Positions 10,523-45,207 of a DNA stretch of 64,000 nucleotides are shown one piece after another. The notes under the pieces were generated by a model. That model made no database searches. It was not told the DNA's origin and saw nothing but the letters and a program-made list of their open reading frames with translations. This stretch comes from Bdellovibrio sp. NC01 (GTDB lineage: Bacteria > Bdellovibrionota > Bdellovibrionia > Bdellovibrionales > Bdellovibrionaceae). Numbering within the stretch: position 1 is the first letter of the stretch; every line of letters starts with the position of its first letter. The position numbers were made by a program, and so were the translations under genes. The DNA is taken from assembly GCF_006874625.1 (NCBI RefSeq), contig NZ_CP030034.1, positions 2,480,001-2,544,000 of the forward strand, written 5' to 3'.

Positions 10523-11125
10523 ATGAATTCACAAGTTAAAGTAGCGATCACAGGTGGGCCTTCCGGGGGCAAAACCACACTCATTGAAACACTTAAAAAA
10601 GAGCTTGGCGCAAAATGCGCAGTCGTTCCTGAAGCTGCCAGTATTTTATATCGCGGTGGTTTTCCACGCTTCAAAGAAGCCCAAGGAATTGTGCACGCGC
10701 AACGTGCGATCTTCTTCACACAACATGAACTTGAAGACATGATCTGCAAAATGAGCGGCAAAAACTTGATCGTCTGCGATCGCGGTACGATGGACAGCTT
10801 GGCCTATTGGCCCGATGCGGATCATGATTTCTTTTCGCAAGTGGACAGCACTCGCGATAAAGAGTTTTCTCGTTATGACTGGGTTATTCATTTAGATACT
10901 GCTGGTAACGATTTTTACGATACTTCAAATCCGATCCGTACTGAAAACTTCGAAGAAGCTTGGGCTTTGAATACAAAAATCAAAGAAGCTTGGGAAGGTC
11001 ATCCGCGCCGTCTGGTGATCACTCACAGCGCTGACTTCTTATCAAAGATCACGACATCATTGGCTGTGATCCGCGCTATCCTTGCACATAAAAATGCTGA
11101 CGAAATTACTAAGGAGCTCCTTTAA
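10523..11125 (+). CDS. P-loop AAA-type ATPase/kinase (NadR-kinase-like)
   Basis: 200 residues. Walker A is GGPSGGKT at residues 11-18, and a Walker B-like strand is LIVCDRGTMDSLAYW. The pattern, with VPEAAS after the first helix and DRG after the second strand, matches the AAA_28/NadR-like domain, a group of small P-loop kinases and ATPases of mostly unknown substrate. A nucleotide- or cofactor-kinase role is inference. Its stop codon overlaps the ATG of the next gene (TAATG), so the ATPase and the large exported barrel protein are translationally coupled, an odd pairing of cytosolic and exported products. Confidence 0.78.
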   Translation: MNSQVKVAITGGPSGGKTTLIETLKKELGAKCAVVPEAASILYRGGFPRFKEAQGIVHAQRAIFFTQHELEDMICKMSGKNLIVCDRGTMDSLAYWPDADHDFFSQVDSTRDKEFSRYDWVIHLDTAGNDFYDTSNPIRTENFEEAWALNTKIKEAWEGHPRRLVITHSADFLSKITTSLAVIRAILAHKNADEITKELL

Positions 11126-12900
11126 TGAAAATCAGTTTGCTTACAGCTTTGACTTTGCTTCTGGCACATTCTTCATTTGCGCAAGCACAATCACGCACTG
11201 ATTTAAAACCCCTCAACTTCCAAGCTGACAAAAACGGATTAGATGTTTTGCCTCAGCGTTTCGAATACTCACTGTGGGATGAAGATCGTTTCTCTATCGG
11301 TGACGTCTTGATTGATTCCCGCCAAGTGACATTCGATTTGGCTCCATCAAAAGATAAAAAGAACCAATACGTGATTCGCTTCACTTGGCCCGCTGGTCTT
11401 TTGCGCGAAGGTCAACTGACGATTAAAAACAACTCTGGTAAAGCCATCATGGCGTCAGAGGTTGATAAGAACGTATTGAAATTCTCACGTGGCACTCCGA
11501 TGGAAGGCCGCGAGAATCTTCGTTCTGACATGGCATCTTTTACGACGACGATTGATTCTAAAATGGTCGACGACATGAAATACCTTCCCTTCATGACGTT
11601 CTGTATTTATCGCGCGACGGAAGGAACTCGTTTGTACTTGTGTTCAAAAGAGCTTTACATCTCTTCAACTCAAGGCCAATTGGCAGTGAAGCCTCGTAAC
11701 TTAAACAAAAAGGTCGCACACGTAGAGATCAACGGAGCCACTGTCGGTAACCAAGGTATCATCTATTTGAACGATCGCACGGAAGCTGTGAACTTCAGAG
11801 GCCAAACGCAATCAGGTTCATTCCTTGAAATCGAAACACGCCGTAACGACGTTGATTTCAAAGACGTTGTTGAAAGCGGCGACAACTTGATCTTGACGGC
11901 TTCAGGGGCCGAGCCTGCTGACGAAAAGAAAGTAAAAAAGATTTCTGCCACTGAATGGCAAGTCACTTTGCCGAAAGAGCGCCCAGTTGTTTACTTGAAA
12001 GGCGAAGGCGACATTCCAATGCGCCAAGAGTTCAACGTTAAAGGAACTTTGCCGCAAGAAAAATTCCGTCCGTATGTTGGCGCGAAATCACAAACTAAAA
12101 CTTACGCTTCATCAGTGACCTTGCAAGTGACTCCCCCACAAGCGGGCACATTGCGTGCGGATTCAACGGATAGCGATGCTCGTTTTGAACCGAACGGATC
12201 TAACTATCGCTGGGCTTTGACTGGAATTCCATCCGGCGAAGCGCGCCGTTACTTGAATGTCGATGCTGAAGGACAAAACTTTGTTGTCGGTTACGATACG
12301 GAACGTGGTGCTCCGTACGCGGTTTATTTAAGCGGCAACTATCAGTTCCCGTCTGGTTTGATTTCTGCAAACATCGGCGCACAATGGTGGATTGAAAACT
12401 TCCTGTTCATGAACTCTTCATGGAGCCGTTTTCACTGGGGCCTAGCGATCGATCACCAACAGCATTTAACAGACAAGGACGACTACGCAAAAGTGGATTT
12501 GACGACAGTTGAGCTTCTATGGAGAGCCAACGCTGGCTTCAACATGGTTGACGACACTTGGGGTTTAATTTTGCCACTTCAAAACGTTAAAGGCGACAGC
12601 AGCAGCGCGATGATGTTTGGTCTTGGTGCTTTCTGGCAAAAACAAATGCAGAAACGCAACTGGGCTCGCTTCATGAATTGGTCGGAAGTGAAACTTCACT
12701 ACTTCTTTGGCAGCTCTGGTGATGACTTCAAAGTAAAAAGCGCTTACCACCTTGAAGGCAATGGCTACAAACGCTTTAAAGAAAAATCAAACTGGTACTT
12801 GAAATACGGTTTGGGTCTTGAGCAATACAAATACGATCCGGCAGCTCCGAAAGAAGACCTAGAGTTTGATGTGAACGCGGGAATCTACTGGCAGTTCTAA
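11125..12900 (+). CDS. Large exported protein with C-terminal beta-barrel-like region; paralog of the 43-45 kb gene
   Basis: 591 residues, with signal peptide MKISLLTALTLLLAHSSFAQA and AAGGAGCTCC before a start that overlaps the upstream stop. The N-terminal two thirds is beta-rich, with repeated Ig-like strands and one possible Cys pair (MTFCIYRAT, LYLCSKELY). The last 200 residues have a strand pattern ending in GIYWQF, typical of an outer-membrane barrel. It aligns by eye with the protein encoded at 43147-45207: PVVYL before an RQEF/RQRL segment, YLNVDAEG/YLNVNFEG, the W-rich segment before W-S-R/WASRQRWG, GAFWQKQM/GVFWARSM, and Y-K-R-F/KRYAF. Function is unknown; surface-exposed structural or secretion-related roles are possible. 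Confidence 0.8.
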   Translation: MKISLLTALTLLLAHSSFAQAQSRTDLKPLNFQADKNGLDVLPQRFEYSLWDEDRFSIGDVLIDSRQVTFDLAPSKDKKNQYVIRFTWPAGLLREGQLTIKNNSGKAIMASEVDKNVLKFSRGTPMEGRENLRSDMASFTTTIDSKMVDDMKYLPFMTFCIYRATEGTRLYLCSKELYISSTQGQLAVKPRNLNKKVAHVEINGATVGNQGIIYLNDRTEAVNFRGQTQSGSFLEIETRRNDVDFKDVVESGDNLILTASGAEPADEKKVKKISATEWQVTLPKERPVVYLKGEGDIPMRQEFNVKGTLPQEKFRPYVGAKSQTKTYASSVTLQVTPPQAGTLRADSTDSDARFEPNGSNYRWALTGIPSGEARRYLNVDAEGQNFVVGYDTERGAPYAVYLSGNYQFPSGLISANIGAQWWIENFLFMNSSWSRFHWGLAIDHQQHLTDKDDYAKVDLTTVELLWRANAGFNMVDDTWGLILPLQNVKGDSSSAMMFGLGAFWQKQMQKRNWARFMNWSEVKLHYFFGSSGDDFKVKSAYHLEGNGYKRFKEKSNWYLKYGLGLEQYKYDPAAPKEDLEFDVNAGIYWQF

Positions 12901-34307: not shown

Positions 34308-34345
34308 AAAAAGCCCGCGACCTTTTCAGTGCGCGGGCTTTTTTT
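34308..34345 (+). terminator. Intrinsic terminator
   Basis: AAAAAGCCCGCG and CGCGGGCTTTTT flank a 12-base loop and a T-run follows, 34 bases after the small-barrel gene. It is convergent with the poly-Gly lipoprotein gene and may serve both. Confidence 0.93.
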
Positions 34346-34393: not shown

Positions 34394-35299
34394 TTACCAG
34401 TTGAAGCTAGATTCGTCGTAGCCCCAGCCAGCCAAAGCTTTTTTGTACATACCTTTCATGAACTTTTGAGCTTGGTATGGTTTCAAACCAAGAGCAGCAG
34501 CAGAACGGTTTGTAACATCTTGCATACCAGCTTTATCACCAGCAGCTAGATCTTTAACAGCAGCCAAAGCGTCAGAGAATTGCACGCCGAATACTGCTTT
34601 GAAAGTTTTGTCCATGTCTTTCTCAGAAGTAGTACCGCGTTCAGCAGCAGCTACCGCCCAAGAGTTCAATGCAGACGCAACTGCAGTCGCTTTATCTTGT
34701 TTGAAACCGTAGTCTTTAACAAGTTTATCAGCAGCCATTTTAACAAGTTGTTTGTTAGATTCAGAGTTCAAAGCAGCAAAGTTTGAATCTGAAGCTGAGC
34801 TAGAACCATTTTCGTTGATTGCTTGACCGTAGTTACCTGCGTATTGGTTTGCAGAGTAAAGAACGCCGTTTTTACCCAACCAGTATGTACCGTTAGATAC
34901 GTTTTCCCAGTAAAGACCAGTAGTACCTACACCGATAGTTGAACCGCCAACATAACCAGCGAATTGAGATGCGCTAGCGTAGTATTGGAAGTGGCCCAAA
35001 TCGTCGTAAACTGCTGCTTGACCAGAACCGTCGAATTTTACGTACCAAAGGTCGTCTGAACCATAACCGTATTTGTTGTAGTCAGGGTCAGCAGTTACTT
35101 TAATGCGCGCGCCAGTTTGATGGCTGAATGTGCAACCTGGAGTTGCTTGTTGAGTTGTACATACGTCACCGTAAACTGTTTCGTATGGATAGTAGATCAC
35201 TTGGCCGCCACCGCCGCCACCACCACCACCGCCGCCTCCGCAGGCTGCGAATCCAGTAACAACTGCTGTCGCTAATAATGCTCTTAATACGTTTTTCAT
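34394..35299 (-). CDS. Lipoprotein with a 12-residue poly-glycine start
   Basis: 301 residues. The ATG at 35299 follows GGGGAGGAAC; an in-frame ATG 6 codons upstream lacks a ribosome site. Lipobox FAAC, and Cys20 is followed at once by twelve Gly, so the anchor is a flexible leash. Residues 35-150 are aromatic- and Gly-rich with a YYPYETVYGD start, perhaps a small beta domain. The C-terminal half is Ala-rich and helical (AALNSESNKQLVKMAADKLV, then LKPYQAQKFMKGM). No family recognised. The glycine codons form a GGN tract of 36 bases. It follows the subtilisin gene on the same strand with about 30 bases between, so cotranscription is likely. Confidence 0.75.
   Translation of the reverse strand: MKNVLRALLATAVVTGFAACGGGGGGGGGGGGQVIYYPYETVYGDVCTTQQATPGCTFSHQTGARIKVTADPDYNKYGYGSDDLWYVKFDGSGQAAVYDDLGHFQYYASASQFAGYVGGSTIGVGTTGLYWENVSNGTYWLGKNGVLYSANQYAGNYGQAINENGSSSASDSNFAALNSESNKQLVKMAADKLVKDYGFKQDKATAVASALNSWAVAAAERGTTSEKDMDKTFKAVFGVQFSDALAAVKDLAAGDKAGMQDVTNRSAAALGLKPYQAQKFMKGMYKKALAGWGYDESSFNW
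35204..35239 (-). repeat. GGN trinucleotide tract encoding twelve glycines
   Basis: Twelve consecutive Gly codons on the minus strand (CCN triplets on plus), with mixed third bases. Slippage in steps of three would change leash length without a frameshift; this is not a phase-variation tract in the usual sense. Confidence 0.6.
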
Positions 35300-35331
35300 A
35301 TGATGGTTCCTCCCCATTTATTTATTTTGTA

Positions 35332-38300
35332 TTAGTAACTCAACTTCACTCTGAGGATTTTATTTCCACAGAAGTAGTCGAACGAGTGAGCCCCCTGCTC
35401 GCCCTCAAACACCGGAGTGTCGAGAGGTCTACAACCCGCCGAAGACTTAAATCTCAGGCGCGCCGGTGACACCAGTTCAACCGCAGTTCCATCCTTTGCA
35501 AAAACCGGTACCAACATTTTGACACCACGGCTGAGACCCGAAGTCTCTGTCGTGAACAGTGCTGGCAGCTTCGTTTTCGCATCGCGCGAATCACTCAGCG
35601 TTAGAGGGTTATAAAGCGCTGTCATCAGAGAGGCAGGGAAGAAAGTATAACGTTCCATGCTCTTGCTAATGACACCGTTATTCAGAAGATCGTGATACTC
35701 GATTTCTGAGTTCGTAAGGACAAAAGCACCTTTGCGATTTTGCCCTGTGAACGCTGCTCTGACGCGCAATGCGGAGTCAAATTGGGACCGTTGTGCACCA
35801 AGTTGTTGATCCAACAACTCCCAGTTCTTGTTATCGAAGATCGATAATCTTTGCTGACGGTTTAGTCCTTCACCGAACCAAAAGCTACCTGCGAATTCAT
35901 CATTGCTATAATCTAATGACTGAACTTCGCCCACCAACGTATCCAAGATGTTGCGATAAGATTCTTTGTTCGCAAAAAGATCCAGCTCCATGAAGTTCTG
36001 CACTTGGCCGCCGACCATCTCACCAACGGCGAAACTATACAAGTACGAGGGCTTAGCTTCTGTACCCTGATTTTTTGCGAGCAGTACCGGAACGATGCCC
36101 GCCTCTGCCTGCGTTTGACGCGGTTGAATCACGTCGATGATTTTATAGCCGTTATAGTCTTCAACAGCTTTCAACTCATTCTTCTCATTCAAATAATAGA
36201 AGCGCATTTTCGCGGCTTCGTTATCATCTGGATTTTCCCAACGATCTTTAAGCGAGCGTTTCTTAGCTGGATCTTTACCACTTCCCACCCACGCTGGGCG
36301 TTTCGTGTTACCCACTTTTTGCCAGAAGATATTAAACGGCATTTGCGCGATTTTGCTGTCATACGCAAAGCTATCGATCAACTTCATGCGGTTGTCGAAA
36401 ACAAAGAAACTTGTTGGCGATGGAGGAGCATCATCTTCTTCGCTCTTATCTTCAAGAACGCCCAAGACGTAATCGCTTTGACCATCGTTATTCATATCCA
36501 TACGAGCCATCACCTGCTCGTTGAAATTATCAGAGTTGCCATCGATACGAATCTTCGCACCTGTTGCACCACCAGCAGTCACGTAGCTGTCTTGGCCTTT
36601 GTTTGCAACAAGCCACAATTGCCATGCATTGCGATTTTGGGAAACTGCAAAGTAATCGCGAAGTTCTGGATGAGCATCCAAATTTTGATCCACTGGCATG
36701 AACGACGTGCGCACGCCAATTGGTAAACCTGTGATGTTCATAGTTCTGATATCAGAAGCCACCGTGTCTGGAGTCAGCGCCACCGTCACTTCGTTTTCGA
36801 AAACATAACGACGAGCCGCTTGACCATTCACACTGACATCAACAGTTAAATCCAATTCACTTGGAATGCGTGATTGCGATGGATTCGCAGTATCGACGAT
36901 GTCCATTTGTACAACGTAGTTACGCTCTTCACCCATTTTCCATGTCGCAGGATATGGAGCTGCTTCTTTGATCGCCGTGATCCATGGGCGAACAGCTTCT
37001 GGATGCGGCTTTAAGAAATTCGCATTCATTTTCACTTGCGAGATATCAACGGCTTGCCACTTGTTCACAAATGAAATTTGATAGCTCAAGGTTTTGCTTT
37101 GACGATCCCAAGGGATTTCAACTTTTTCTTTTGTCGCAGGGACAATCAAAGGTTGCGCTGTGACTTTCAAGGCCCCTTCAAGATTCATGTTTCCGGCAAT
37201 AGCGTATTTTGTGTAACTTTCTTTTTCCGGATCAAGGCTCTTAGGTGTCGTATTAGGGAGACCTTCCACAAGGCTCAAGTTCGTCAGTAGCGGACGTGCA
37301 GAAAGGATCAGACGAGGATAAATCTCTTCCGCAGGAATACCACGCGCTAACATTTCAGCAATCGCAGCTGTCACGAAAGGAGTTGCCTGAGACGTACCCG
37401 ACAAGAATTCGTAACCCAATGTTGAGCGGAAACGGATAGGACGTTTGCTTTCAGGATAAGTGCTTAGGATGTTCACACCTGGAGCCACGATATCAACGCC
37501 ACTACCGAAGTTTGAAAAGTGCGCCATTGCGCCGTCAGGACCCGCAGCACCCACACAGATCACGTTCTTGTAAGCACAAGGACGAAGAAGTGCGCGAGTG
37601 GAGTCATTCCCTGCTGCCGCAACGATAATCACGCCACGGGATTGAGCTTCAGCGATCACTTGTCTCATAAAATCAGAATCAACAACTTGTGGCCAACCCA
37701 TAGAGAAGTTGATCACCTTTGCACCCGAGCGCATCGCATAGATCACGCCACGTGCAACCATGTCACCCAAACTGCGATTGATTTCAGCTTTACCTTCTTC
37801 AGTCGGAGAATCCGTAATAGACAACGGCTTCATCGGTTCACTTGGTTGGGTACCGATCACTTGCACCGGCAAGATTTCAACGTTTTGACTTAAACCACGA
37901 ACACCGATGTTGTTATCGGCAATCGCAGCGATAATACCAGATACGTGTGTCCCGTGACCTTGACTGTCGTCAAAATCAGGACGACCCATGATGTTTGCCG
38001 CGTTCGTACCACCCAGCAAAGACCACCCCTGGCAATCTAGTGGGTAACCGTTCTTATCTTGATCGACTTCAGGATTTTTTAGATCCATCCATTTTTGTTC
38101 GCAGACTTTGCGATCAGAATCTTCAAGACACTTTTTGAATTTTTCAAGCGCTTTACATTCTGATTCATTACGGTGGATCACACCTTTTAAATCCGGATGG
38201 TCTGCTTGAATACCTGTATCCAATACAGCCACGATCACTTTTTTAGGCGCTTTATAAGGAGCTGGCAAACGAACATCTTCACCCGCACGTGCTTGCACGC

Positions 38301-38442
38301 GGTAGATGTGCAAAGGATCTAAGTCGATCGTTTGCATTTGGCCTTGATTATTTAAACCCCACTGCGCATCACCGAATGGATCCGCAGCATGGGCTGACAA
38401 TGACAATGTAGTGGCAATAAAGCTTGCGACAAAGAGTTTCAT
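35332..38442 (-). CDS. Exported subtilisin-like serine protease (S8) with beta-rich C-terminal extension
   Basis: 1036 residues; AAGGAGGG precedes the ATG, which overlaps the upstream stop (TAATG). Signal peptide MKLFVASFIATTLSLSAHA. The catalytic triad is complete: D75 in VAVLDTGIQADHP, H163 in GHGTHVSGI, S351 in LSGTSQATPF, with oxyanion N279 in AAAGNDS. The mature enzyme starts almost directly with the catalytic domain, so an I9-type propeptide is absent or minimal. Residues 420-1036 are beta-rich and include a DMNNDGQSDYVLGV loop like the calcium loops of FG-GAP/VCBS repeats, which may bind calcium or targets. It belongs to the exported-protein block and is likely secreted during predation. 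Confidence 0.88.
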   Translation of the reverse strand: MKLFVASFIATTLSLSAHAADPFGDAQWGLNNQGQMQTIDLDPLHIYRVQARAGEDVRLPAPYKAPKKVIVAVLDTGIQADHPDLKGVIHRNESECKALEKFKKCLEDSDRKVCEQKWMDLKNPEVDQDKNGYPLDCQGWSLLGGTNAANIMGRPDFDDSQGHGTHVSGIIAAIADNNIGVRGLSQNVEILPVQVIGTQPSEPMKPLSITDSPTEEGKAEINRSLGDMVARGVIYAMRSGAKVINFSMGWPQVVDSDFMRQVIAEAQSRGVIIVAAAGNDSTRALLRPCAYKNVICVGAAGPDGAMAHFSNFGSGVDIVAPGVNILSTYPESKRPIRFRSTLGYEFLSGTSQATPFVTAAIAEMLARGIPAEEIYPRLILSARPLLTNLSLVEGLPNTTPKSLDPEKESYTKYAIAGNMNLEGALKVTAQPLIVPATKEKVEIPWDRQSKTLSYQISFVNKWQAVDISQVKMNANFLKPHPEAVRPWITAIKEAAPYPATWKMGEERNYVVQMDIVDTANPSQSRIPSELDLTVDVSVNGQAARRYVFENEVTVALTPDTVASDIRTMNITGLPIGVRTSFMPVDQNLDAHPELRDYFAVSQNRNAWQLWLVANKGQDSYVTAGGATGAKIRIDGNSDNFNEQVMARMDMNNDGQSDYVLGVLEDKSEEDDAPPSPTSFFVFDNRMKLIDSFAYDSKIAQMPFNIFWQKVGNTKRPAWVGSGKDPAKKRSLKDRWENPDDNEAAKMRFYYLNEKNELKAVEDYNGYKIIDVIQPRQTQAEAGIVPVLLAKNQGTEAKPSYLYSFAVGEMVGGQVQNFMELDLFANKESYRNILDTLVGEVQSLDYSNDEFAGSFWFGEGLNRQQRLSIFDNKNWELLDQQLGAQRSQFDSALRVRAAFTGQNRKGAFVLTNSEIEYHDLLNNGVISKSMERYTFFPASLMTALYNPLTLSDSRDAKTKLPALFTTETSGLSRGVKMLVPVFAKDGTAVELVSPARLRFKSSAGCRPLDTPVFEGEQGAHSFDYFCGNKILRVKLSY

Positions 38443-41400
38443 TATTTGAACCCTCCTTGAGTACGATCCAGTTCTATTGGCGAAATACGTGTTTTCGTCG
38501 CGAACATGTTGATCAAACCGTTTGCGTAATCCAAATTTTTCTTCGGATCGCCCAATGTGTTTGAGAAGTATTCGATATCCCCGTCTTCATCACCAGTACG
38601 GAAACCGTTGATGCGCACGAAGAACACATAGTTTTCAGGGCCCAAGAATTTCAACAACTGTGGCAATGGGATTTCTTCATCCAAGATATAAAGAACCGAA
38701 GTCATCCACTTCGTTTGTTCTTTTTTATCTTTCGGATATGAACGAGCCATGTTGATCAAGTTTTTCACCCACGGCATCAAGCATTGATAGTAAGTGCCGT
38801 TCACCCAGTAACCAGAGTTGGTGTTACTCACGTGATCACGCTGTCTTGATGTTTGTTCCGAGTGCGCTTGTTCACACATGTTGTTGAACCACGCAAGACC
38901 CGTTTTGTAATCGCCATTACCAAAGATCTTCATCAAATCGTCGAAGAACTCGCGGTCGTTGGCCTTTGCAGGTTTACCCATTTTTTCGCTTAATTTTTGG
39001 AACAAGCGTCCAAAGAATCTTGCGTTATCAACATCTTTACCATCAGCATCCGGTTGCAACACAAGGTCACGGATTTTATCCAAACCACCTGGCAACACTG
39101 ACAACTGCGCTGTGACACGATAGAAGTCTACAGACGTGACTGTCGAGAACGCTTCAGGTTCAACCAAACGGTAGTTCGCAACAGTCGTGCCTTTGAATTG
39201 ACCTTGAACTTCATCAATAAGGTTTAAGAATTTCTTCTTAGATAAATGCCAGCCTCCCCACACGTGTTGAAGGATAGCTACTGACGGATATTGTTTTTGG
39301 TTTACTGTAAGATCCGACTCCGTTGTTGCCGTTCTCCAGTAAGCTTTACCAAATGGCGTATTGGCTGGATTCGGGTCATCGCTGTCACCAAGGCTGACTT
39401 GCGCTTTAGGCTGCCATTTATTGATAATGCCAGTGATCCAGTCCATCGCAAAACCAAGAAGGTCACGACCGACAAGCTCGCCTTTTTTGTTCGAGAACAA
39501 AGTCACTTCTTCATCTTTAGGATCAAGTTCTGGAGCATCCACGCTACGTGGGTAGCGGATTTTCAATAAATGATCTTCATTCAAAGAATCTACACGTTGC
39601 GCAAGCAAGCGCGTGCGAATTTCGCGAGTTTTCAAGTTGTGATCGATTTCAAACTTTTGGAATTTGAATTTTGAATACAACAACTCGGTATCGTTATCAC
39701 GGAACAACGAATACAGAACTGGTTTTAAGTTTTTACGAGTATCCAAGAACGTTTTCACGTACTTGTTATCAGTTTGTGACAAATCCAACTGCTCGGCCAT
39801 TTCAGGACGGTAGTCGATCACGAAAGCATCGGTGTGAAGATCCGTGATGTTTGTTTGCGCACGTACTTTCAAGAGATTGATGAAGTAGTTGATGTCCAAC
39901 GTCATGCCCAAGGCTGTTGACGATTGTTTTCTAACGAAAACTTGAACGCCTTCACTTGTTCTCATGAAACTTGTTTGTGACAAGATCACACGTGAACCGT
40001 CGACACCCAAAGCAACTGTATTTAAGAAGTCTAACGGAGTGATACCCATCAAAGTATCAATCGACGCAGACACTTGTGCGTAAGCAGCTAGAGCCACCGA
40101 ATCTGTGATCGTGAAGACTTCGCCTTCACGAAGATCAGACAAGAATGCATCCAGAGGAATTTTTGTTGGCGCTTTGCCATCGCCAGGAACTTGAACTGTG
40201 TCAGATGCTTTTGGATCTGTTTGTCCAAGCACCGCACCTAATTTTTCCATGAATCTTGGAATCACAAGATTTTGCCATGGAACTTTCACGCCCTCTTGAA
40301 TTGAAAGCAACGGACGAACGTGAGTGTAATCACGTGTGATCATCAAGTTCGCGCCACCCACAGGACTGATTTTAGGAACACCATCCAAAGCCATGAAGTA
40401 ACCCACACTGCCCGTCAGTGATAAGTTATCCACCAATTGGATCGCAGCCGATGAACCATAGTATGTACCCGTCGTAACCTGACGACCGGCATTCATCGAC
40501 AGACCCGCTACAGGTCCACCCCACGCTTCAACCGGTTGATACAACGGTTCACGCGGATTCGTTCTGATGTGATCGATAATACGTTTTTGAATTTCGTTAC
40601 CACGTTTAACAGCAAGGTCCGACGTGCTTAAGAAAGCCAAATGTTCGTTGATGTGATTGATCGCAGTTTGGATCAATGCTGTCTTACCGCGAATACCCAA
40701 GTAACGTTGCAAGTCACCATCTTGGAATGGCGATTGACGATCACCATGAGCAAAACGTTGCGGATAACCAGGAGCGAACTCCTTCATCACTTTACCGTTT
40801 TGTACTAAGCCTGAAGGTGACGTGATATCCAATGACGGACTTGGCCAGCCCGCAGAGTTTGGAAGATTGAAAAGTTCCAAACCGTTTTTCGCGCGGTAAT
40901 AAAGTTTTGCAAGAACCAAAGATTCAAGCTCTGCCGGGAAAGCCCCCGCTTTGACAATGTCAGAAAAATCTTTCGTTGAAAGTCTTTGCAAACGACGCAT
41001 CAACCAACGCGCATCTTCGTAAGTACAAGCAGCGAATGACTCTGCCGAAGGATGAGTCAGCACCACATTGCCTGAAAGAACGGAACCCAATTTTGGAGAG
41101 AAACGGTTGATACTTTCTGGAACGTCCACCAACGTAAATGGCAAAATCAACGCGCGATACGCACGGTATTTTGAATAACGTTGTACGGCCGCCAACTGCT
41201 CTGGGAAATTTGGATCTGGAGCCATACCCCAGTGAATATCGAAATACTCATCAGAAGCGGGTTCAAGAACCGCGTCAGAGAAAACTACAGAGTGATTTTG
41301 TTTGTTGTCTTCGATCACCCAGTTACGGCTGGCAAGATCGACGATCATGTACTGTTCAGCGTTCGTTAAGAAAGTCTGTTTTTCTTCTTCGCTATTAAAG

Positions 41401-41879
41401 AACACGCGAAGGTTTTTGTAGTATTTCGGAGAAGCGACGTAGTAACCAAGTTTTCTTAAAAGAGCGGCTCTCATCAGAGCTGTGTGCGAATAACGTGAAA
41501 GACTGAAGCGGTAGAATTTAGTTGGATCTTCTTGGCTTTGAACACGAGACATGTACGTGAAAGCCTTACGGATTGCGGCTTCTTCTGACAGGAACTTCAC
41601 ACCCGTGGGTCCGTTCGGGTATGCGCCAGCCACTTCTTCTGTCGCAGGATACGTGCGATCTTGCCACATTTTATTGTCAGCGGGATTGTAAAGGCTGAGG
41701 TCGGTGCCCTTCTGAGCCATCGCTGCGGCTTGACCGACATCAATAGCTTGGCCAGAACCTGCGATAAGGTCTGCGGCAGGCTTCTTTACTGAATTGAGCG
41801 GCAACGAAACGCTTTCCGCGCTCGCGATCGACAGCGCCATGAGGCACAAGGCGAAGACGATAACTATTCTTAATGACAT
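38442..41879 (-). CDS. Large exported protein of unknown function (1145 aa)
   Basis: The ATG at 41879 follows GAGGTTCGG; the frame extends 16 codons upstream without a ribosome site. Signal peptide MSLRIVIVFALCLMALSIASA. The mature chain is mixed alpha/beta and has a few Cys pairs (FAACTYED; NMCEQAHS and YQCLMPW near the C-terminus). The middle holds strand-rich repeats (GSVGYFMALDGVP, YTHVRPLLSIQEG) resembling a barrel or barrel-like sheet, while both ends are helical. No domain is recognised. Its stop overlaps the subtilisin start (TAATG), so the two are tightly coupled. A role as a partner, substrate or secretion aid of the protease is inference. Confidence 0.75.
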   Translation of the reverse strand: MSLRIVIVFALCLMALSIASAESVSLPLNSVKKPAADLIAGSGQAIDVGQAAAMAQKGTDLSLYNPADNKMWQDRTYPATEEVAGAYPNGPTGVKFLSEEAAIRKAFTYMSRVQSQEDPTKFYRFSLSRYSHTALMRAALLRKLGYYVASPKYYKNLRVFFNSEEEKQTFLTNAEQYMIVDLASRNWVIEDNKQNHSVVFSDAVLEPASDEYFDIHWGMAPDPNFPEQLAAVQRYSKYRAYRALILPFTLVDVPESINRFSPKLGSVLSGNVVLTHPSAESFAACTYEDARWLMRRLQRLSTKDFSDIVKAGAFPAELESLVLAKLYYRAKNGLELFNLPNSAGWPSPSLDITSPSGLVQNGKVMKEFAPGYPQRFAHGDRQSPFQDGDLQRYLGIRGKTALIQTAINHINEHLAFLSTSDLAVKRGNEIQKRIIDHIRTNPREPLYQPVEAWGGPVAGLSMNAGRQVTTGTYYGSSAAIQLVDNLSLTGSVGYFMALDGVPKISPVGGANLMITRDYTHVRPLLSIQEGVKVPWQNLVIPRFMEKLGAVLGQTDPKASDTVQVPGDGKAPTKIPLDAFLSDLREGEVFTITDSVALAAYAQVSASIDTLMGITPLDFLNTVALGVDGSRVILSQTSFMRTSEGVQVFVRKQSSTALGMTLDINYFINLLKVRAQTNITDLHTDAFVIDYRPEMAEQLDLSQTDNKYVKTFLDTRKNLKPVLYSLFRDNDTELLYSKFKFQKFEIDHNLKTREIRTRLLAQRVDSLNEDHLLKIRYPRSVDAPELDPKDEEVTLFSNKKGELVGRDLLGFAMDWITGIINKWQPKAQVSLGDSDDPNPANTPFGKAYWRTATTESDLTVNQKQYPSVAILQHVWGGWHLSKKKFLNLIDEVQGQFKGTTVANYRLVEPEAFSTVTSVDFYRVTAQLSVLPGGLDKIRDLVLQPDADGKDVDNARFFGRLFQKLSEKMGKPAKANDREFFDDLMKIFGNGDYKTGLAWFNNMCEQAHSEQTSRQRDHVSNTNSGYWVNGTYYQCLMPWVKNLINMARSYPKDKKEQTKWMTSVLYILDEEIPLPQLLKFLGPENYVFFVRINGFRTGDEDGDIEYFSNTLGDPKKNLDYANGLINMFATKTRISPIELDRTQGGFK

Positions 41880-41992
41880 ACCGAACCTCAAATCTGGTGT
41901 CAAAAGGACCCGAAACCGGCTCAGCAAGGACTAGGCCACATTACGGCACCACCATGCAAAAACCACCCGGGCATCAGTTTCATCTGGAACAG

Positions 41993-42021
41993 AAAAAGCC
42001 TCCGGTTTCCGAAGGCCTTTT
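41993..42021 (-). terminator. Terminator-like hairpin downstream of the papain-like gene
   Basis: On the minus strand AAGGCCTTCGG-aaa-CCGGAGGCTTTTT gives a 10-pair stem with one mismatch, then a T-run. It separates the papain-like gene from the 1145-residue gene, so those are probably separate transcription units. Confidence 0.75.
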
Positions 42022-42054
42022 GGAAAATTTATATCTGTGCTTAAAAGAACCGCA

Positions 42055-43044
42055 CTATTTGCAGACTGCTTGATAGTGCTTTAACAGCGCTCTTTCGAAG
42101 TCACCGCGCTCGTCTTCACTCACAATGAAAGTTCCAAGCGCTGCGTTAGTCCCGAGTACTGTCGGAGCATAGAACTGTTGTGACGTAGGATCGAAAATTA
42201 CCGACTGATCGCGAACAGGTTGATTAGAGTCATACACCGTAAATCGAATGACACCCGAAGCATCTTTCGTGAACGACTTCGCCATCACCACGTGTTGGGT
42301 TGTTTGATCGACGCGCAAGTTGATCAACGTTAAACGTTTACCGCTAAGGTTTCTCATCAACTGATTTGCGGTTTCCACGTTCGTGCCTTGATCGCGCGCA
42401 CCAGAGCCCGCCCCCATGCCGATGTTACCAAAACGGAAAAAACGGAAAGATTGGTTATACTCTACTTCACCTTTAAATCGGCGCACTTTTCCTGTTTCGC
42501 CTGAGATACCGTTGGCCATATCTGTCCAAAGATTTTGTCCACCTTTGAAGTATCCTTGCCCCAAAGAGTTTTCCGACAATTTGAACACTTCATAATTGCG
42601 CAAAGGGAACTCTCTCACTTTTTCTGGATGATCGTAATCTAGTGACGGTTCGCTTCGACGAATCATGTTTAACACTTTTCTTGTCTGCTCTTCCGAATGA
42701 TCCACCGATGACTCGTTATAACGAGCAAGGTACGAGAACATGCGCTGAGTGCTGCTTAAAGCCCAGCAGTTCGCGATAGGAAACCCGCCACTATTAAATG
42801 CCCAGTTCTCTGTCGGGATGTTGCGTACTTCGTCGAAAGCATCGTCGCGAATCGCCGCATAAATCGCAGCTGTAGAGATATTATTGCAACTAAGATTACG
42901 AACTAAAGAGTCCGTGATGATTTTATCTGAGATTTTCGTTTTGGAGTCGCCGCCAAATCCCCAACCGTAAGCTTTTTCAGCCGTTAGGAATAGAGATGAA
43001 GCCACACTTAATGTGAAGACGGTAAAAATAAAAATTGCTCTCAT
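42055..43044 (-). CDS. Exported protein, possible papain-like cysteine protease
   Basis: 329 residues. The ATG at 43044 follows GAGGAAC, with a signal peptide (AIFIFTVFTLSVASSLFLTA). Residues 88-100, FPIANCWALSSTQ, carry the C-W-A-x-S pattern around the papain nucleophile (C93). A His follows in TTQHVVMAKSF (H251) and a polar pair in VYDSNQP (D272/N274), the order and spacing of a papain/transglutaminase-fold triad. A further Cys near the N-terminus (NLSCNN) may form a disulphide. This is a fold-level guess; I cannot name a peptidase family. The gene stands between the barrel paralog and the 1145-residue gene, and is bounded by a hairpin on each side. Confidence 0.65.
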   Translation of the reverse strand: MRAIFIFTVFTLSVASSLFLTAEKAYGWGFGGDSKTKISDKIITDSLVRNLSCNNISTAAIYAAIRDDAFDEVRNIPTENWAFNSGGFPIANCWALSSTQRMFSYLARYNESSVDHSEEQTRKVLNMIRRSEPSLDYDHPEKVREFPLRNYEVFKLSENSLGQGYFKGGQNLWTDMANGISGETGKVRRFKGEVEYNQSFRFFRFGNIGMGAGSGARDQGTNVETANQLMRNLSGKRLTLINLRVDQTTQHVVMAKSFTKDASGVIRFTVYDSNQPVRDQSVIFDPTSQQFYAPTVLGTNAALGTFIVSEDERGDFERALLKHYQAVCK

Positions 43045-43115
43045 GGTTACGTTCCTCGATGGGAAGACCAGAGAGCAATTCACAAACCACCATCAGATCG
43101 TGGTTATTTAGTCTA

Positions 43116-43140
43116 CACCTGTCTAAGCCCTAGACAGGTG
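43116..43140. terminator. Perfect hairpin between barrel paralog and papain-like gene
   Basis: CACCTGTCTA and TAGACAGGTG pair perfectly around a 5-base loop, with no T-run. A smaller hairpin (AACCAC/GTGGTT at about 43085-43105) follows in the direction of transcription. Possible transcript-stability or attenuation elements. Confidence 0.55.
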
Positions 43141-43146
43141 ACATTC

Positions 43147-45207
43147 TTAGAAGTTCAAACCCACACCGACTGTTCCGTAGAAGGTGTTCAACTCTGCTTT
43201 CTGATTTTGCGCCGTATCCGTGAAGGCATAACGTTTATAACCAAAGCCTGCTTCACCGTACAATGATTCAGTCCACAAAACTTTACCGTGGAAGTTCAAT
43301 GACATTGATGAATTCAACGTCACGTTGCTGTCCATCGACTGAGTATAATAGATGAATTCCATATCAACCCATTTTGGATAGCGCATGAATTCAAGAACGT
43401 TGAACAGATCATCGATACTCTTCGGCATTGAACGTGCCCAGAAGACACCGCCGCCCAACATTGGCGCTTTCAACTCATCAAATTTTACGCTTTGATAAGA
43501 ACCCAAAAGACCCACAGATTCGTCACGATTCCAAAGACCTGGAGTAAAACGATATTTCAAATCGACCGTCAATACACTCAAAGGAGCGGTACGACCTGTT
43601 GCTTTATCAACCGTCAATTGATTGAAAGATTGGAAGTATTTTGCAGCGATACCCCAACGTTGGCGAGACGCCCAATAATTTGTCCAACCGAAAAGGTCTT
43701 CAAACCACTGATTGTATGCAAGCTCGCCCAAGAAGATCAAAGTGCCTGATGCACTGACCGCCGAAAGACGCGCTGACAATTCACGAGGATAACCTTTGTA
43801 GATTTCGAAATACGATTTATAAGTCTTACCTTCGAAGTTTACATTCAAGTACGAGCGATTGATTTGACCACGCTCTGTCGCTTTAAATTTCCAATAAAAG
43901 TGACCAGGATCTTTTTCGTCTTGTTCGACTGAATTCTGTGTCGATGTCACTTCTGAAGTCGGTTGTTTACGACCTTCAAGTTTAATACCGTCAATATACG
44001 TGCCCGTTGGCGTGCGTTTGCTTAAGTAAACGCGCGATTGGCTGCGTGGAATTTCAGAAAGCTCTAAACGTTGTCTGAAGACACCGCCACCTTGACCTGG
44101 CAAATAAACGACTGGATTACTTGTTGGCACTGCCGCCGCCCAGAATTTACGTGGATCACCAATCGTCGCTTCAAAGCCGATCATTTTCGTCAGGTTCGAG
44201 TATTGATCTGGATTTAGGATGATCGATTTTCCGACAGGGCGAGTGTCATAACCTACAACACGCAAAATTTTTGGATTTTTTGTGTCCGCGATATCCATCA
44301 ATTGCAACTTGTTCGGCATCACGACGAATTCATAGCTTTCGCCAGTTGCAAGTTCCGCATAAAAACCTGTTGGCACATCCGTCGCAACTTGAACTGTTTT
44401 CTTTGTTGGAGCGTCTTCGTTATTTACAAGGACACGTGGATTGTTTTTCTCGCCACGCGTTTTACCCATCGCAAGACCTTGCGGAGTTTTCTTCACAGCA
44501 TAACGTTGCGAGCACAGTTTTGTTTGATTGCGACCCTCTTCAGAGCTTAAGCAGAAACGGAATGATTCGTTGATATTTGCAAACGCACCTGCTTCATTCA
44601 CGTTCAAAACCGCATATTGAGTGGCAAAGATTCCGCCACGCAAATTTGAAGCTTGAGTACCTGCGCCAAGAAGAGTCTTCTTCCACCCGTCTAATTTCTG
44701 ATTCCACTCTGTGATATCCGCAGCAGAGATTTTTGTTCTCCACAACACGGCTCCGGTGCGCGAAATCATTTCAAGTGTTCCAGAAGAGATCAATCTGTCG
44801 GGCCACGCCATAACAAGAGCTAATTGATCAGCTTGGTTCGCTGCCACGACTTGATTGATTTGTGAATGCGTTTTTCCCAATGGCAACAAGCCAAAGTAAA
44901 AATTCTTTTCATTCAACGAAACATTTCCGACGCGCAGATTTTTACCAGCGTCGCTTAAATCATAATCAAGCTCTAATGGCGGCAAGATCAAACCGTTGTC
45001 GATCTGATCGAAATACATCGCCTTGTTAAATTCTTTTGTCGCCGCAGTTTTCAATAATGAACGCTGAGGAGCTGGAATGTCTTCAGCCTCTTGAGCTGGA
45101 ACATTTACAGAGGGTGCAGAGCTTTGCGTTGAAGCGGCTTCTTGAGCCCGTACCGAAGAACCCAGAACTAATAAAAGGGGCAATACCAGATGCTGCGCAA
45201 TATTCAC
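43147..45207 (-). CDS. Large exported beta-barrel protein; paralog of the 11-13 kb gene
   Basis: 686 residues. The GTG at 45207 is preferred because GAGGTAAACATC precedes it and the signal peptide (NIAQHLVLPLLLVLGSSVRAQ) starts right there; longer in-frame versions only add unlikely residues. The N-terminus is a Pro/Glu/Ser-rich stretch, then two beta-rich domains (one with a Cys pair, FRFCLSS and TKLCSQR), then a barrel-like C-terminus ending GTVGVGLNF. It aligns by eye with the 591-residue protein at 11125-12900 across the PVVYL, YLNV, W-x4-W-x-R and GVFW/GAFW segments. The family is unknown to me. It is the first gene of the minus-strand exported-protein block. Confidence 0.8.
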   Translation of the reverse strand: MNIAQHLVLPLLLVLGSSVRAQEAASTQSSAPSVNVPAQEAEDIPAPQRSLLKTAATKEFNKAMYFDQIDNGLILPPLELDYDLSDAGKNLRVGNVSLNEKNFYFGLLPLGKTHSQINQVVAANQADQLALVMAWPDRLISSGTLEMISRTGAVLWRTKISAADITEWNQKLDGWKKTLLGAGTQASNLRGGIFATQYAVLNVNEAGAFANINESFRFCLSSEEGRNQTKLCSQRYAVKKTPQGLAMGKTRGEKNNPRVLVNNEDAPTKKTVQVATDVPTGFYAELATGESYEFVVMPNKLQLMDIADTKNPKILRVVGYDTRPVGKSIILNPDQYSNLTKMIGFEATIGDPRKFWAAAVPTSNPVVYLPGQGGGVFRQRLELSEIPRSQSRVYLSKRTPTGTYIDGIKLEGRKQPTSEVTSTQNSVEQDEKDPGHFYWKFKATERGQINRSYLNVNFEGKTYKSYFEIYKGYPRELSARLSAVSASGTLIFLGELAYNQWFEDLFGWTNYWASRQRWGIAAKYFQSFNQLTVDKATGRTAPLSVLTVDLKYRFTPGLWNRDESVGLLGSYQSVKFDELKAPMLGGGVFWARSMPKSIDDLFNVLEFMRYPKWVDMEFIYYTQSMDSNVTLNSSMSLNFHGKVLWTESLYGEAGFGYKRYAFTDTAQNQKAELNTFYGTVGVGLNF

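Follow-up and report, generated by a model that had tools for sequence, protein, structure and literature searches.

A three-gene cassette in Bdellovibrio sp. NC01, encoding a large protein modelled as an outer-membrane β-barrel (BIG), a subtilisin (S8) and, at this locus and many others, a lipoprotein (LIPO), appears to be a cell-surface protease machine that has not been described before. The chance that the three products form a tripartite outer-membrane protease system, in which BIG exports or displays S8, is considered to be about even. The cassette lies in the 64,000-nucleotide stretch of DNA analysed here (the window), which belongs to a genome of one contig (3,975,853 bases). Judged by the gene content of this site in related genomes, it is composed of BIG-S8-LIPO and runs from 41879 to 34394 on the minus strand. 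BIG (38442..41879) encodes 1145 aa from the ATG at 41879, S8 (35332..38442) encodes 1036 aa and LIPO (34394..35299) encodes 301 aa. The BIG stop and S8 start codons overlap in the minus-strand pentamer TAATG (38440..38444), with one shared base at 38442.

Two further minus-strand genes precede the cassette, namely BAR (43147..45207; 686 aa, an exported barrel-like protein) and PAP (42055..43044; 329 aa, a papain-like exported protein). An initial annotation had grouped all five as open reading frames for exported proteins and had pointed out the stop/start overlap; both observations hold, and an N-terminal signal sequence can be read by eye in BAR, PAP, BIG, S8 and LIPO. The barrel paralog mentioned there was likewise recovered: a paralog of BAR lies at 11125-12900 of the window (plus strand; 22% identity across most of its length, E 1e-27). 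The label papain-like, given to PAP as a candidate assignment, is reasonable because Cys93, His251 and Asp272/Asn274 are invariant among 16 homologues. PAP is mostly restricted to the genus and occurs at other sites in LBG001 (G104) and G148.

The grouping of the five genes as one block did not survive comparison with genomes in which this site has no cassette. The order uvrA, TerC-like, EamA, FNR, BAR, PAP, OMP and HD-GYP is collinear with NC01 in SKB1291214, G118 and KM01 (flanking genes were named by reading, with a Pfam check on FNR only), and in all three BIG, S8 and LIPO are precisely gone from between PAP and OMP. In a fourth genome, G154, the site lacks BIG, S8 and LIPO and also PAP. 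BAR is thus retained in 4/4 of these genomes and PAP in three, which marks both as mere neighbours of the cassette. KM01 and G154 carry a divergent BIG-S8 pair at another site. A search with the NC01 LIPO sequence in six genomes without the cassette at the site gave no match in five and a marginal match in G154. Furthermore, a predicted terminator hairpin at 41993..42021 (minus strand; -17.4 kcal/mol, z -2.95) separates PAP from BIG and forms the upstream boundary of the cassette, and a second hairpin (34308..34343, minus strand; -22.6 kcal/mol, z -4.7) lies 3' of LIPO. Since the first terminator splits PAP from BIG and the last three genes form a separate cassette, the five genes are not one unit. 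Together with the promoter-like motif described below, the terminators suggest that the cassette is a transcription unit of its own. In a plasmid search, the cassette was unmatched. In B. bacteriovorus HD100 a rhomboid gene (PF01694, with a weak rhombosortase match; L041:843-1565) adjoins the cassette, and other strains have a different gene in that place.

The coupling of a large partner to the subtilisin, proposed from the single locus, extends across the phylum Bdellovibrionota. Full or partial BIG matches were found in 100 of the 192 phylum genomes by single-sequence search and in 105 by profile, a count that takes in distant orphan paralogues. Strong BIG matches mark 80 non-redundant loci; three at contig edges and one frameshifted fragment were dropped, leaving 76 that could be assessed. 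S8 is the next gene on the same strand in 75/76 of these, down to ~20% identity, with one locus (L140) counted as linked across a short spurious ORF. The sole exception, L110, has BIG without S8 and retains the usual downstream neighbour, a gene of ~500 aa on the opposite strand. In 44/74 loci the called overlap between BIG and S8 is exactly 1 or 4 nt, and nearly all others have either a larger overlap arising from start choice or a gap within 11 nt. The pair loci cover at least nine family-level groups, with identities from 20 to 81%; they are related by descent, so that 75/76 does not represent independent trials. Distance matrices of BIG and S8 correlate at r 0.97 (permutation maximum 0.36, n=2000), a value that shared descent alone can also give. 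Paired BIG-S8 paralogues within one genome were observed as well.

Distant BIG-like proteins of 1.06-1.30 kaa occur without S8, alone or in tandem (L127-L136), and share with BIG chiefly a patch around residues 232-388; such relatives can therefore work without S8. A scan of 84,980 species for exactly conserved peptides returned 46 loci, whose titles were Bdellovibrionota, unspecific metagenome-assembled genomes (MAGs) or one misnamed MAG; the scan sees exact conserved peptides only and does not prove absence beyond Bdellovibrionota. One locus titled Streptomyces griseus (L102) has a BIG gene at 47% identity and is probably a misnamed Bdellovibrionota MAG. In B. bacteriovorus kdesi (L109), the BIG gene is broken into two ORFs, of 216 and 746 aa, and the adjoining S8 is intact; the break may be an assembly error, since this genome has been flagged as possibly unfinished (PMC11656739).

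The third gene is less uniformly placed. In NC01, LIPO has a lipobox and the sequence AAC-Gly12, in which the lipidated cysteine is immediately followed by a Gly12 tether. In 49/76 pair loci, a lipoprotein-like gene encoding 150-400 residues on the same strand is found no more than two genes from the pair, and 37 of these genes match the LIPO profile; the lipobox baseline in other genes is 8%, a contrast that is indicative because the two figures were counted differently (49/76 combines four neighbour slots with profile matches). The LIPO-type gene sits upstream or downstream of BIG-S8 from locus to locus. A cysteine followed by a glycine run is seen in many of the neighbouring lipoproteins, including that of Halobacteriovorax marinus SJ (L061).

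A sigma-54 (-24/-12) type motif, TGGCCTAGTCCTTGCT (TGGC-N7-TTGCT; 41923..41938, minus strand), lies ~45-60 nt 5' of the BIG start codon, and RpoN (sigma-54) is encoded in the NC01 genome. The window contains two matches to the motif compared to 1.7 expected, so that a single match means little, and the case for sigma-54 rests on conserved position. The pattern TGGCN7TTGC[AT] occurs upstream of BIG in 15/69 loci, mostly Bdellovibrionaceae, against ~0.6 expected at 0.025 per kb, and the loci that bear it include some in which BIG is just 45-53% identical. No such match was seen ahead of BIG in strain W (L042) or outside this mostly Bdellovibrionaceae clade.

A connection with predation comes from B. 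bacteriovorus HD100, in which the rhomboid gene is next to LIPO. Bd2426 is annotated as rhomboid-like (PMC3818213), and interpolation between S8 gene positions places the paired subtilisin at ~Bd2427-2430. On these two grounds S8 is equated with Bd2428, BIG with Bd2429 and LIPO with Bd2427. Lambert et al. (PMC2797640) report that Bd2428 is up-regulated at 30 min of predation and count it with the 14 'predatory genes' identified by Tudor 2008 through mini-Tn5 insertion, the mutant being published as predation-deficient. LIPO, which lies downstream, might be affected as well by an insertion in Bd2428. Bd2428 was also one of the S8 proteases recovered from killed prey in the empty-bdelloplast secretome, a proteome that also contained some proteins of lysed predators (PMC11003981). 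The main text of a Tn-seq study gives no Bd2427-Bd2429 mutant, and the main text of an exit-phase proteome paper does not mention Bd2428 (PMC12546842). Neither of the two sequenced epibiotic predators (P. exovorus JSS and Ca. B. qaytius) carries the cassette, nor does the periplasm-invading SKB1291214. The earlier suggestion of a predation-related system accordingly finds support in the Bd2428 literature for some predators, and these absences indicate that the cassette is not required by the lifestyle.

BIG could be placed in no sequence family of Pfam, NCBIfam or the PDB, and a PDB profile search returned nothing credible. A RAP domain was considered and rejected: 13/39 members matched (best E 0.0008), and NC01 BIG, at 17 bits, fell short of the 24.2 cut-off. 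The AlphaFold model (39 sequences; pLDDT 86, pTM 0.82) contains a signal peptide, a periplasmic domain of mixed fold (~22-440) and a barrel of 14 long strands between residues 451 and 1095, with a 155-residue insert bearing two conserved cysteines between the last two strands. The best 50 VIA-align matches were all outer-membrane barrels (50/50; Z 9.4-13.9), with the 14-strand CymA at the top (Z 13.9, rmsd 6.7 over 255) and OmpG also among them (Z 12.6). Foldseek with the same model gave no significant match (best E 0.026); thus, the likeness is attributed to common architecture and not to family membership. Loops after odd strands (9, 63, 3, 52, 16, 10 and 155 residues) are longer overall than those after even strands (4, 13, 1, 2, 39 and 39), as would be expected with a periplasmic N-terminal domain. 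Alternation of hydropathy along the strands exceeds that of shuffled sequences when all strands are taken together (p 0.001), with few strands significant singly. By these criteria BIG looks like an outer-membrane β-barrel with a periplasmic domain, both barrel and orientation being predictions from the model.

The same structure would also suit nutrient uptake, in which surface S8 would cut prey proteins, LIPO would catch the peptides and the barrel would import them in a SusCD-type or other porin-plus-enzyme manner. The top structural matches, CymA and OmpG, are substrate pores built of 14 strands, a single cassette holds lipoprotein, barrel and hydrolase, and prey protein is the food of predators. 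Nevertheless, uptake seems unlikely, given that no TonB-dependent receptor or SusD-like family was found in BIG members (Pfam), and that induction at 30 min and the presence of Bd2428 in prey not invaded suggest a secreted role.

S8 is a true subtilase. It scores 152.1 bits against PF00082 (cut-off 21.8), a family matched by 41/41 S8 members, and the residues Asp75, His163 and Ser351 and the oxyanion Asn279 are present in 41/41. The catalytic domain (~20-428) is modelled close to deseasin MCP-01 (Z 41.7, rmsd 2.0 over 306) and thermitase (Z 40.6) and is followed by a ~600-residue all-beta C-terminal region that is specific to the pair and shows repeated four-strand groups in the structure model. 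Searches with these 608 C-terminal residues gave no second match in NC01 or HD100. An FG-GAP/beta-propeller assignment for the region was considered on the basis of three weak FG-GAP matches and the four-strand repeats, and was not adopted, as there was no PDB profile match. With a score of 138.6 against the mycosin equivalog (cut-off 278.75), S8 is not assigned to the mycosins.

A subtilisin of this kind might instead mature BIG or LIPO, so that BIG would be both substrate and effector. There is a precedent in dentilisin, in which PrcA is cut by PrtP, the subtilisin of the same operon (PMC8167434), and the insert between the last two strands, with its conserved cysteines, could be a processed loop. 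This is a rather remote prospect, since S8 is much bigger than a processing role would call for and its C-terminal region is conserved and pair-specific, and since Bd2428 was detected in killed prey, away from the predator.

Co-regulation alone, in which one operon would encode an exported protease together with an outer-membrane protein that is unrelated to it and works separately, gains some ground from the many other exported Bdellovibrio proteases without such a partner, and from the fact that contact between BIG and S8 is something we infer. It is difficult to reconcile with linkage in 75/76 loci at phylum distances (20-30% identity), with paired paralogues in one genome and with the joint absence of BIG, S8 and LIPO, and is considered improbable. 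Lastly, the lack of a clear propeptide in the NC01 subtilisin was confirmed, only 27 residues preceding the first tryptophan of the mature domain. This feature, together with translational coupling that makes BIG first, would fit BIG as an intermolecular chaperone standing in for the missing propeptide, an idea that was rejected as scarcely credible because 18/41 paired subtilisins have propeptide-sized N-termini (104-184 residues ahead of the catalytic domain) and keep BIG all the same, and because a 1145-residue barrel of the outer membrane is not a likely foldase.

Among the partner roles first put forward (folding aid, inhibitor, substrate or secretion partner), that of secretion or surface partner therefore fits best, given that BIG models as an outer-membrane barrel, and that of folding aid fits poorly. 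In the proposed export or display mechanism, BIG would be translated just ahead of S8, with coupled translation, and would be inserted into the outer membrane through its 14-strand barrel, its large domain facing the periplasm. There it would act as a dedicated partner that either exports S8 or keeps it on the cell surface, and the contact between the two would be made through the pair-specific C-terminal region of S8. LIPO may be a flexible accessory tethered by its poly-Gly segment. In B. bacteriovorus, Bd2429-Bd2428-Bd2427 would be turned on by the sigma-54 promoter early in prey invasion, and S8 would act on envelope or periplasmic proteins of the prey. Between the two modes, export is favoured because Bd2428 has been found outside the predator and its partner is barrel-like.

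A broader formulation is held only tentatively: that this is a new form of subtilisin delivery, by a 14-strand barrel unrelated to Omp85/TpsB and a poly-Gly lipoprotein, present across Bdellovibrionota and controlled by sigma-54 in Bdellovibrionaceae during prey invasion. If BIG is an exporter, it would represent a secretion route beyond the known type V families. The consulted reports of Bd2428 as a predation gene or as a protein of killed prey name no partner; a barrel-like partner conserved throughout the phylum would shift the question from which protease is involved to how a predator moves a protease through its own outer membrane. The presence or absence of the cassette at one site in several Bdellovibrio strains provides a natural test.

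The closest parallel among known systems is dentilisin (PrcB-PrcA-PrtP) of Treponema denticola, an outer-membrane protease complex encoded by a three-gene operon (PMC8167434). As in the cassette, a small lipoprotein is accompanied by a large accessory gene located just 5' of a subtilisin with a unique C-terminal domain (PMC8167434), and the combination of lipoprotein, accessory protein and subtilisin recurs in the phylum, with LIPO beside BIG-S8 at many loci. The two differ in that PrtP and PrcA are lipoproteins and PrcA, of ~70 kDa, is not described as a barrel, whereas S8 has no lipobox. No sequence relation was found for BIG, and S8 scores 100.8 against the PrtP equivalog, below the cut-off of 300.

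The subtilisin autotransporters NalP, SphB1 and Ssp also have a subtilisin brought to the surface by an outer-membrane β-barrel. Their barrel has 12 strands and is fused to the protease, with passenger and β-domain in one polypeptide as in type Va systems generally, whereas BIG and S8 are separate ORFs at every locus looked at, and for BIG 14 strands are predicted, along with a periplasmic domain. No autotransporter Pfam domain was found in BIG or S8 members. The arrangement of a barrel gene adjoining the gene for a large exported protein resembles two-partner secretion (TpsB/TpsA, type Vb). Unlike in that system, POTRA, ShlB and Omp85 domains were found in 0/39 BIG members and the TPS domain in 0/41 S8 members (Pfam), and the barrel is predicted to have 14 strands and not 16. 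Within Bdellovibrio itself, Bd2269 is a secreted S8 protease of B. bacteriovorus involved in predation and prey exit (PMC12546842). At G000:C1:2345809-2348716, NC01 has two tandem subtilase genes of ~558 aa where HD100 has one (Bd2269 by position). Bd2269 is a separate, smaller S8 gene, and the paired S8 is set apart from it by its barrel partner and its C-terminal region.
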